A stretch of 12,851 nt of DNA from NCBI GenBank assembly GCA_016209155.1, contig JACQWU010000054.1, forward strand, positions 2,314 to 15,164, written 5' to 3'. The DNA is from Candidatus Desantisiibacteriota bacterium (GTDB lineage: Bacteria > JACRDZ01). The notes beneath the pieces are model-generated. The model saw only the letters and a program-made list of their open reading frames with translations, did no database searches and was not told the origin of the DNA. Every line of letters starts with the position of its first letter. Within the stretch, counting starts at the first letter, position 1. The position numbers were made by a program, and so were the translations under genes. Shown piece by piece: positions 10,235 through 12,633 of this stretch.

Positions 10235-11236
10235 ATGCAACTCGTAATTAACTCTTATGGTTCATATCTTCAAAGAAACGGCGACTGTTTTAAAGTCAAA
10301 GTTGATGATAAGGTTTCTGAAATATCCTGCAAAAAAATATCATCTATCCTTATTTCAACAGCCGCGTATATTACAACTGATGCCATAAAACTGGCAATGG
10401 AAAACAATATTGATATTGTTTTTATCGATGATTTTGGGGATCCTTACGGCAGGATATGGCATCCAAAGCTTGGAAGCACTACACTCATAAGAAGAAGACA
10501 ACTGGAAATATCGGAAACTGAAAAAGGGCTTAATCTTGCGGTTGATTGGATAAAGACAAAATTTACAAATCAAATAGAATTATTTAAAAGGCTTAGGGAA
10601 ACAAGGCCGCAAAAATCCGCAGAGATTACAAGCTACATTTCAAAACTTGAAAATACAATGACAAGCTTAAACTCTCTTTCAGGTACAATTGATGAAAATC
10701 GGGGAACCATTATGGGGATAGAGGGAAGCGGTGGAAGAATTTATTTTGAGGCTTTAAGTTTTTTAATGCCGGATAGATATAAATTTGAAGGACGAAGCAG
10801 AAATCCGGCAAAAGATGAATTTAATTGTTTATTAAATTATACCTATGGAATACTTTATTCCAAAGTTGAGAAAGGCTGTATAATCGCGGGGCTTGATCCA
10901 TATGTGGGTTTTATCCATACGGATCATTATAATAAAAAGTCACTGGTGTTTGATTTGATTGAAAATTATCGTATCTGGGCAGATGAAACTGTGGTAAACA
11001 TGTTTGCCGGAAGAAAAGTCAAGGTTGAATATTTTGATAAAATTCCAAATGGATTAACTTTAAACAAAGAAGGCAAAGCCGGATTAATCACCGAATTTAA
11101 TACATATATGGATGAATCAATTAGATATAATGGAAGAAATATTAAACGCGATAATATAATTCAGTTTGATTGCCACAGGATTGCGAATGAATTGATAAAA
11201 GGCAGTGAAAGTGTAAGTGAAAGTGGGGGAAAATAA
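10235..11236 (+). CDS. cas1: Cas1 spacer integrase
   Basis: This 333-residue Cas1 should form, with Cas2, the integrase that inserts new spacers at the leader end of an array. ATG 10235 follows AAGGA (10224-10228). The N-terminal beta domain runs to about residue 80 (LVINSYGSYLQRNGDCFKVK). The helical catalytic domain holds E163 in GIEGSGGRIYFEAL, H228 in GFIHTD, and E243 in the D-L-I-E segment; these are the expected metal ligands, with the usual 15-residue spacing from H to E. The last residues, SESVSESGGK, are encoded by a run of AGTGNN hexamers (11204-11227) and look like a tail acquired from that repeat. A hairpin with a T-run precedes the gene, so it may have its own promoter; I see no convincing one. 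Confidence 0.95.
   Translation: MQLVINSYGSYLQRNGDCFKVKVDDKVSEISCKKISSILISTAAYITTDAIKLAMENNIDIVFIDDFGDPYGRIWHPKLGSTTLIRRRQLEISETEKGLNLAVDWIKTKFTNQIELFKRLRETRPQKSAEITSYISKLENTMTSLNSLSGTIDENRGTIMGIEGSGGRIYFEALSFLMPDRYKFEGRSRNPAKDEFNCLLNYTYGILYSKVEKGCIIAGLDPYVGFIHTDHYNKKSLVFDLIENYRIWADETVVNMFAGRKVKVEYFDKIPNGLTLNKEGKAGLITEFNTYMDESIRYNGRNIKRDNIIQFDCHRIANELIKGSESVSESGGK
11204..11227 (+). repeat. Hexamer cluster A (AGTGNN x4) at the end of cas1
   Basis: Four consecutive units read AGTGAA, AGTGTA, AGTGAA and AGTGGG inside the last codons of cas1. They are inverted relative to cluster B (11237-11266), so the transcript can fold across the cas1/cas2 junction. Confidence 0.75.
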
Positions 11237-11266
11237 TTTCACATACACTTGCACATACACTTACAC
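11237..11266 (-). repeat. Hexamer cluster B (5 units, minus orientation) before cas2
   Basis: Read on the minus strand this is GTGTAA, GTGTAT, GTGCAA, GTGTAT, GTGAAA. The 17-base string at 11245-11261 recurs exactly at 12020-12036 in cluster D. It ends just before CGGAG, the cas2 ribosome site, so a hairpin with cluster A could hide or expose that site. Confidence 0.78.
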
Positions 11267-11275
11267 GGAGTTTAT

Positions 11276-11572
11276 ATGGATAATCTTGTATGGGTAATTT
11301 ACGATATTTCCAAAACTAAAACACGAAGTAAGATTGCCAAAGCCTGTAAAAATAAAGGGATTTACAGAGTGCAAAAGTCCGTATTTCTCGGTACTCTTAA
11401 TAAAAATCAAATCGATGAACTTAAAATTATGTGCGATGATATAATTGATCCGGAGGTCGATTCGGTATATATTTTCCCAATGTGCCAGGACGATTTTAAA
11501 AAAGTAAAACTTTTAGGTCAGGCGTTTGATAAAAATTTAGTAAACGATGAAGTAAAGGCGTTGTTTGTTTAA
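11276..11572 (+). CDS. cas2: Cas2, partner of Cas1
   Basis: This 98-residue protein starts at ATG 11276, after CGGAG (11266-11270) at five bases. A longer frame from a TTG at 11249 would add nine residues encoded by repeat DNA and is rejected. The first beta-strand, [19 protein letters not shown], carries the conserved aspartate D10 of Cas2 after Y9; [14 protein letters not shown] is the usual second strand, and [14 protein letters not shown] the last conserved strand of the ferredoxin-like fold. As a dimer it bridges two Cas1 dimers. Hexamer cluster C begins right after its stop codon and lies between it and the four-helix-bundle gene. Confidence 0.93.
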
Positions 11573-11602
11573 AGTGTAAGTGTAGGTGAAAGTGTAAGTC
11601 AA
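11573..11602 (+). repeat. Hexamer cluster C (AGTGTA-type) after cas2
   Basis: Units read AGTGTA, AGTGTA, GGTGAA, AGTGTA and a decayed AGTCAA, starting one base after the cas2 stop. It is inverted relative to cluster D at the start of cas4, so C and D bracket the four-helix-bundle gene. Confidence 0.75.
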
Positions 11603-11620
11603 AGATAGGGAGATGAATTT

Positions 11621-11989
11621 GTGAATAAAATAAAGAGCGTTGAAGACCTATATGTTTTTAAAAAAGCACATGCTTTAGTATTGAAAATATATGAATTAAC
11701 GGAAAAATTTCCATCCCATGAGAAATTTGGTTTGATTTCACAAATAAGAAGATCGGCATATTCAGTTCCTTCAAATCTTATTGAAGGTGGTAATCGTCTT
11801 GGGAGTAAAGAATATAGACAGTTTGTTGGCATAGCAAGAGGATCAATTTCAGAGCTTAAATATCAGCTTATGCTATCTAAAGATTTAAAATATATTTCAT
11901 CTGAAATGTTCGAGGAAATTAAAAAAGAAATTTTGGAAATTAGCTGTATGCTAATGGGATTAGCAAATTCTTTATATAAAAAGGTATGA
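11621..11989 (+). CDS. Four-helix bundle protein (23S IVS/S23 type)
   Basis: This 122-residue protein begins at GTG 11621, after AGGGAG. It matches the four-helix-bundle family first known from intervening sequences in 23S rRNA genes: SVEDLYVFKKAHALVLKIYE (helix 1), FPSHEKFGLISQIRRSAYSV (the conserved F-P-x-x-E-x-x-G-L-x-x-Q-I-R-R-S-A), PSNLIEGGNRLGSKEYRQF (the conserved N-I-x-E-G), then two more helices. Relatives include the Avd accessory protein of diversity-generating retroelements, but no reverse transcriptase is seen here. The biochemical function is unknown; a pentameric nucleic-acid-binding barrel is the usual structure. It stands between cas2 and cas4, framed by inverted hexamer clusters, which suggests insertion with its repeats rather than a role in adaptation. 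Confidence 0.9.
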   Translation: MNKIKSVEDLYVFKKAHALVLKIYELTEKFPSHEKFGLISQIRRSAYSVPSNLIEGGNRLGSKEYRQFVGIARGSISELKYQLMLSKDLKYISSEMFEEIKKEILEISCMLMGLANSLYKKV

Positions 11990-11994
11990 TTTAA

Positions 11995-12633
11995 ATGGAT
12001 GCCATTACTCCCATCACTTACACTTGCACATACACTGATTTTGACACTGACATGACTGCCATGATTACACCATCAGAGGTAGTAGAGCATCTTTACTGCC
12101 CGCGATTTACGTATTTTATGAATTGTCTGGATATCCCCCAGCATGAGGAATTAAGGTATAAAGTATTGAAAGGCAGAGAGCTTCATGAGAAACGTGAGGT
12201 TGAAAACCGCGAATATATTAGAAAAAAAATAGGATGTGTAAATAAAGATGTATCGGTATATATCGCTTCACGCAATTTGAGAATAAGAGGCATTGTTGAT
12301 GAAGTGCTTGAGCTTAATGATGGTACACTTGCTCCGTTAGATTACAAGTTTGCGGAATATAATGATTTCACATTTGAAACTTACAAAATTCAATCGGTAT
12401 TATACGCGCTTTTGATAATGGAAAATTATAACAAACCCGTTAAAAAAGGTTTTATCTGCTATATAAAAAGCAGCAATAAGATAAAAGAAATTATTTACAG
12501 TGAACAGGATATTTGTTATACTAAAGATGTTATTAATGAAATATTTAATATAATACTAAAAGGCTATTATCCCAAAAAAACTAAATACCAGAACAAATGT
12601 ATTGATTGTTGCTACAGGAATATTTGTGTATAA
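11995..12633 (+). CDS. cas4: Cas4 exonuclease for spacer trimming
   Basis: This 212-residue RecB-family Cas4 with an iron-sulphur cluster should trim and select prespacers by their PAM for Cas1-Cas2. Four cysteines fit the cluster: C35 in EHLYCPR and C202, C205 (or C206) and C211 in KCIDCCYRNICV. The nuclease site is H64 (RELHEKRE), D102 (GIVDEV), D116 and K118 (PLDYK), and Q133 in the QSVLYA motif. ATG 11995 has AAAAGG upstream. The first 20 residues (rich in T, Y and D) are encoded by hexamer cluster D and have no counterpart in the family; ATG 12052 or 12061 (MITPSEVVEHLYCPR) would give the normal start, but has no clear ribosome site. Ends 218 bases before the window edge. Confidence 0.93.
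   Translation: MDAITPITYTCTYTDFDTDMTAMITPSEVVEHLYCPRFTYFMNCLDIPQHEELRYKVLKGRELHEKREVENREYIRKKIGCVNKDVSVYIASRNLRIRGIVDEVLELNDGTLAPLDYKFAEYNDFTFETYKIQSVLYALLIMENYNKPVKKGFICYIKSSNKIKEIIYSEQDICYTKDVINEIFNIILKGYYPKKTKYQNKCIDCCYRNICV
12013..12035 (-). repeat. Hexamer cluster D in the start of cas4
   Basis: On the minus strand this reads GTGTAT, GTGCAA, GTGTAA, GTGAT. The 17 bases at 12020-12036 are identical to 11245-11261 in cluster B, and a decayed unit follows near 12041-12046. It lies within the first codons of the longer cas4 reading frame. Confidence 0.75.

Follow-up and report, generated by a model that had tools for sequence, protein, structure and literature searches.

We analyzed a 12,851-nt stretch of a Candidatus Desantisiibacteriota genome (contig JACQWU010000054.1; hereafter the window), which contains a type I-D CRISPR-Cas operon (Cas3', Csc2, Csc1, Cas6b, Cas1, Cas2, and Cas4 by profile searches) in which a four-helix-bundle (FHB) gene separates cas2 from cas4. 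With a probability of roughly 0.8, we read positions 11572–12053, that is, the FHB gene and the two inverted, degenerate short-unit arrays enclosing it (arrays C and D), as a minimal selfish mobile element. It spans ∼0.5 kb and encodes no recombinase; its mobility is well supported, and the moving enzyme is one that we infer. A second array pair with the same GTGNNN unit at the neighboring operon joint (arrays A and B, 11204–11266) would be an FHB-less derivative or remnant. In our best reading, the element is a free-standing cousin of the intervening sequences of 23S rRNA.

Repeat finding and TRF recovered the four GTGNNN clusters of the initial annotation in the alternating orientations described there (A +, B −, C +, D −), with A/B at the cas1/cas2 joint and C and D flanking the FHB gene, as it had placed them. 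The identical string it had seen in B and D is present as well, with a length of 18 bases (TACACTTGCACATACACT), not 17. Triple GTG/CAC runs in six-base phase occur nine times in the window, all within A–D, against a chance expectation of 0.012 on average and 1 at most in 500 first-order Markov sequences. The arms are complementary between B and C (87% over 30 nt), C and D (90% over 21 nt), and A and D (94% over 16 nt). Folding of each pair as RNA, a check proposed in the initial annotation, closes A/B as a hairpin (z −5.05, with 0 of 200 shuffles equally good) and pairs C with D around the entire FHB gene (z −1.97). Copy counts within the window's genome were obtained by searching for sequence patterns in an assembly of 79% completeness; a search of it for GTG arrays returned nothing beyond the window and one tract in an unrelated open reading frame (ORF) on contig C239. 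Outside the window, no GTGTAA array was found in the genome except this tract (L012, 1501–1527), which is in frame within a long ORF and encodes SVSVSVSV.

The gene-plus-inverted-array architecture recurs across bacterial phyla. Most of the first-fetched relatives of the window FHB, from unrelated organisms, have inverted short repeats, each with its own unit. Our survey of 134 FHB genes drew mainly on ∼45 genomes belonging to different families, and mainly on unrelated bacteria; it also took in relatives found by similarity to the window FHB and six plasmid loci, which introduce a small bias. For each gene, the 250-bp upstream flank was aligned to the downstream flank in reverse complement. 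The median flank score was 35, compared with 17 for mispaired flanks, and 93 of the 134 genes exceeded the 99th percentile in inverted orientation, compared with only 22 in direct orientation. As controls, PIN genes of these genomes never passed the threshold (0 of 30; Fisher p = 1.5e-13), and random intervals did so in 1.8% of cases. Array-free FHB genes elsewhere in the genome had been named in the initial annotation as an outcome that would speak against its proposal; this does not hold in general, as most FHB genes are flanked by inverted arrays, but in the window's genome the others carry other repeats or none.

The arrays share further properties. Their period is 7 in 51 of 78 elements, 8 in 16, and 6 in 5; on the gene strand, G is richer than C in the upstream array of 81 of 89 elements; and the FHB gene usually has the orientation of its upstream neighbor. 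In 65 of 92 cases, no more than 30 bp separate the array start from a stop codon on the same strand (median 4 bp). The gene-plus-array units adjoin ribonucleotide reductase, secretion, conjugation, and tRNA genes; FHB genes close to tRNA genes were seen at L027, L029, L030, L031, L101, L106, and L122.

Our comparisons show that the array unit is not universal and is specific to the FHB lineage. For FHB pairs with a similarity of at least 0.5, array similarity averaged 17.6, compared with a mean of 10.9 and a maximum of 13.0 over 1000 permutations. GTG in six-base phase was found in seven of eight close relatives of the window FHB, which come from Nitrospirae, Desulfobacterales, Aminicenantes, and other groups, and in 1 of 126 others (p = 5e-10), that lone case being one of the next-closest FHBs. 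Arrays that track FHB similarity are the pattern that a protein recognizing its own ends would leave; such recognition is putative.

Filled and empty versions of the same site were compared at seven places and point to discrete insertions, usually at a stop codon. At site 1, on cyanobacterial plasmids, the element is present in Trichormus and Scytonema and absent from Fremyella and Nostoc linckia, with flanks that are 97.6% identical. Site 2 is filled or empty in the pair Nostoc C052 and ATCC 53789, and sites 3 to 7 lie in other operons of cyanobacterial plasmids. At sites 1 to 5 the array starts at, or a few bases from, a stop codon; at site 6 it starts ∼35 bp before the old stop and provides a new one, and at site 7 the array end provides the stop codon of the adjacent gene. 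Site 5 is not cleanly empty in the relative that lacks the FHB, since the joint there is occupied by a different short array. Elements would settle at gene ends, mostly at or within the stop codon, where both neighboring genes remain readable. A fixed target duplication was rejected over the seven sites and one nested insertion: one site shows GTAAT (5 bp), another may show TTCTA, although that could be an array unit, and the nested insertion shows none. Measured against miniature inverted-repeat transposable elements of the DDE type, the inverted ends are present and a fixed-length duplication is not, with none of at least 2 bp in the nested case.

The least probable explanation that we weighed treats the arrays as slippage tracts of an ordinary, microsatellite-like kind at the ends of genes and the FHB gene as a bystander. 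In its favor, several genomes are rich in heptamer tracts for which there is no explanation (PMC4692102, PMC4679880, PMC2700814), but this reading is already contradicted by the inverted pairing at 69% of FHB genes compared with 0 of 30 controls, by the correlation of the unit with FHB lineage, and by empty-site comparisons in which entire units are present or absent.

An FHB-less hairpin with the same heptamers as FHB elements has also inserted recently. In Nostoc N6, a 182-bp hairpin with AGTCAGG-type heptamers splits an FHB gene; apart from this interruption, the gene hardly differs in sequence from that of a relative. The hairpin is multicopy, occurring at 98 places in 43 plasmid records, and GATAA lies at or within 1 nt of its end in 7 of 7 copies examined. 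Its sole known empty site already had GATAA, and no duplication of at least 2 bp followed insertion. The transposable or recombination unit proposed in the initial annotation, inverted repeats plus the FHB gene, is thus supported by flanking arrays, filled and empty sites, and this jump into an FHB gene; its extent needs revision, as the unit comprises only C, the FHB gene, and D, with A/B a separate FHB-less copy.

Under the mobile-element reading, the FHB protein would recognize the hairpin arms, in the form of either RNA or single-stranded DNA, and would promote mobility; catalysis would be supplied in trans by a host enzyme, for which a Y1 (HUH, IS200/RAYT) transposase is the best candidate. 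Across 145 genomes, Y1/RAYT transposases were found in 34 of 45 with FHB and in 37 of 100 others (odds ratio 5.3, p = 2.7e-5), whereas reverse transcriptases, DDE_Tnp_1, and PIN showed no significant association with FHB. General mobilome richness was considered as the sole cause of the Y1 link and rejected, given the DDE_Tnp_1 and PIN results; stratification by PIN leaves the association uneven.

As a variant of the mobile-element reading, it is conceivable, though we lean against it, that Y1 in trans moves both FHB-bearing and FHB-less hairpins in a REPIN-like manner, with FHB as a cofactor or passenger. HUH/Y1 enzymes such as those of IS608 and ISDra2 transpose single strands beside a short fixed target, with no duplication expected. 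The 182-bp hairpin, always beside GATAA/TTATC in the seven copies and without duplication, behaves accordingly, and inverted ends were found in 25 of 37 Y1 genes examined, some with short tandem units. Against this, 11 of the 45 FHB genomes have no Y1 match at the cutoff used, FHB-bearing copies do not follow the GATAA rule, which holds for one FHB-less family only, and the association is strong among PIN-negative genomes but not significant among PIN-positive ones (p = 0.24). Since the association is concentrated in PIN-negative genomes and those 11 genomes lack Y1, it is a lead, not a demonstration. In many of these genomes, Y1/RAYT-like genes (L194–L233) have inverted ends that start with GGGGTCAGGTC or GGGGACGGTG and continue into short tandem units, for example TTGACATTTGACA, which suggests an end architecture common to these genes and FHB elements.

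Beyond the limits of the Y1 association and the GATAA rule, several observations count against a mobile element. At ∼30% of FHB genes, arrays could not be detected. The ends are not uniform, the GTAAT at one FHB insertion being a possible 5-bp duplication and other insertions showing none or an unclear one. The window's own copies are old, the FHB being 66% identical to its nearest relative, and no sufficiently close empty site turned up for them. No transposition was observed. The preference for stop codons may merely be what survives selection against insertions within genes, because a related hairpin did land mid-gene.

Four type I-D loci were compared (the window, L014, L018, and L186, the last in sister genome G003). 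All have inverted arrays at both cas1/cas2 and cas2/cas4, with units that differ among the loci, and each has an FHB gene at one joint, cas2/cas4 in the window and cas1/cas2 in the other three. Since arrays occupy both joints but FHB only one, C–FHB–D can be taken as the full element and A/B as the derivative or remnant. In the I-D operon of a Pseudanabaena plasmid, where the unit is TAGCTTT, the FHB element occupies the cas6/cas4 joint, and hairpins without FHB occupy both cas4/cas1 and cas1/cas2. A close relative of this plasmid operon has a bare 5-bp gap at cas4/cas1.

These loci also bear on the proposal, which we consider unlikely, that FHB is a working accessory of CRISPR adaptation and that the hairpins regulate translation or mRNA processing of cas1-cas2-cas4. 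FHB genes do occur in the adaptation modules of several I-D loci, including that of the cyanobacterial plasmid, as well as next to cas4/cas1 in another CRISPR locus that the window's genome contains; the A/B hairpin is stable; and a large survey names 23S rRNA IVP in its figure of CRISPR-associated proteins (PMC10910872). However, the same gene-plus-array design stands beside the ribonucleotide reductase, secretion, conjugation, and tRNA genes mentioned above, the array unit tracks FHB lineage, and close relatives have no element at the same joints. The association with cas genes is not conserved: FHB shifts between joints, most homologues lie elsewhere, and some cas joints are without it.

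The second CRISPR locus of the window's genome (L266, contig C132, 7422–10415) is type I-C-like, with the order intact cas4, phage-antirepressor-like ORF, long FHB gene, cas4 fragment, cas1, and cas2. The cas4 fragment has its C-terminus fused in frame to an IVP-type FHB, and the cas1 start is duplicated nearby. After cas4 in L186, an FHB element directly abuts a single CRISPR-like repeat (..CATTAAAACAAGGATTGAAAC), which looks like a place where the array was interrupted or lost. L034 (2423–3309) has an FHB gene, with no arrays detected around it, at a distance of ∼0.6 kb from a CRISPR array belonging to the CRISPR-DR2 type.

Returning to the mobile-element reading, the arrays would, after insertion, become extensions of Cas1 and Cas4. 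The conserved part of the window cas1 stops at ∼11203, and its final codons fall within array A (LIK-GSESVSESGGK, then stop); in three sister loci Cas1 ends LIK, MIKES, or LIKEREP, followed by the array. Array D is translated as an N-terminal extension at the extended 5' end of cas4, and conserved Cas4 sequence probably begins with the ATG at 12061 (MITPSEVVEHLYCPR), a motif also found near the Cas4 start in L018 and L186. The array-derived Cas1 and Cas4 tails are probably insertion scars, and IVP genes adjoining cas genes may be hitch-hikers, not CRISPR components.

The window FHB belongs to the 23S rRNA IVP family, matching PF05635 (3.6e-37, 127.3 bits; curated cutoff 33.8) and TIGR02436 (4.4e-34, 117 bits; cutoff 24), with a solved homologue in XCC0516 (structure 2GSC, 3.3e-21). 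A search for phage relatives of FHB found none, and a scan of viral contigs gave one distant match. Matches to Avd models are weak and below curated cutoffs (bAvd 7e-8; DivGenRetAVD 5.8e-12, 45.8 bits vs a cutoff of 80). They could indicate a retroelement moved by the reverse transcriptase of a diversity-generating retroelement (DGR), with FHB acting like Avd, and the window's genome does hold a DGR-like cassette with its own Avd-type gene. We regard this as very improbable, as an RVT_1 match is absent from 31 of 45 FHB genomes (odds ratio 1.29, p = 0.55) and adenine is not favored in the variation of the arrays (A 0.102, C 0.108, G 0.087, T 0.117). Given this flat substitution spectrum, we rejected the idea that unit variation stems from DGR-type mutagenesis directed at adenines, and a required reverse transcriptase is unsupported, with those 31 genomes lacking one; none was found among the window ORFs whose families were searched. 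The DGR-like cassette (L003, contig C97, 1480–2926) comprises an Avd-type FHB without visible flanking arrays and a reverse transcriptase adjoining a sulfatase-modifying-factor-like protein. FHB and Avd share a protein superfamily, as the weak profile matches show; the window element has no adjacent reverse transcriptase, template, or variable repeat.

Among known systems, the element resembles the 23S rRNA intervening sequences with an S23/IVP gene in Coxiella, Leptospira, and Salmonella, which are ∼0.4–0.5 kb long, carry one PF05635-type gene between complementary ends, and are sporadically distributed. The C/D pair likewise encloses the FHB gene, but FHB elements lie at the ends of protein genes, and their ends are degenerate short tandem arrays whose unit varies with FHB lineage. 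No Rfam match was found in the window and no rRNA match in 40 FHB loci scanned. The Coxiella sequence, with a gene of the same family, is regarded as selfish, and earlier work proposed that such sequences arose by transposition or from a mobile element (PMC4990558). This old idea becomes testable in plasmids that offer both occupied and empty sites. REPINs, RAYT-linked hairpins associated with Y1 in trans (PMC3116915), are likewise short, mostly intergenic, non-autonomous inverted-repeat hairpins; the full FHB element differs in bearing its own non-catalytic protein gene and in having tandem heptamer or hexamer arrays as arms, not a single REP.

In cyanobacteria, STRR heptamers are known also inside rnpB and a tRNA-Leu intron, and small dispersed repeats were reportedly treated by Elhai in 2008. 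The degenerate 7-nt units of cyanobacteria, Xanthomonas, Geobacter, and Beggiatoaceae, often in inverted pairs near the end of the upstream gene, resemble our arrays. X. campestris has 70 inverted heptamer pairs, on average 28 nt from the 5' ORF (PMC4692102), and also encodes the FHB of structure 2GSC. These heptamers have no agreed explanation (Xanthomonas/Nostoc, Beggiatoaceae, and Geobacter; PMC4692102, PMC4679880, PMC2700814), and we found in those papers no connection to a four-helix-bundle gene. In the open-access literature we found no paper joining FHB genes with flanking repeats. Our results offer a candidate origin for these long-noted repeats, and a candidate function and life history for a very common family that annotations call no more than "four helix bundle protein" or "23S rRNA IVP". 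Tentatively, and at slightly less than even odds, we propose a phylum-spanning mobile class whose sole gene is a non-catalytic FHB co-evolving with its own degenerate tandem-array ends; its FHB-less derivatives would make up a large share of unexplained bacterial heptamer repeats, and 23S rRNA intervening sequences would be the branch that landed in rRNA.

Table 1. Genes and arrays at the cas1–cas4 end of the window's type I-D operon
Feature	Position	Strand	Evidence
cas1 (type I-D locus)	10235..11236	+	PF01867 1.3e-78
Array A: GTGNNN hexamers, left arm of putative FHB-less hairpin at cas1/cas2 joint	11204–11225	+	TRF, repeat finder
Array B: inverted GTGNNN hexamers, right arm of putative FHB-less hairpin	11238–11266	−	TRF, repeat finder; A/B folding
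cas2 (stop codon 11570–11572)	11276..11572	+	PF09827 1.7e-22
Array C: left arm of putative complete element, starting right at cas2 stop codon	11572–11604	+	TRF, repeat finder; pairs with D
FHB gene: 23S rRNA IVP family, 122 aa, only gene of the putative element	11621..11989	+	PF05635, TIGR02436, 2GSC
cas4	11995..12633	+	TIGR00372 7.6e-37
Array D: right arm, core 12014–12036, degenerate tail to ∼12053	12014..12053	−	TRF, repeat finder

Immediately upstream of the cas operon, the window also carries an ORF6N-domain gene of the phage regulator type (1003–1548).

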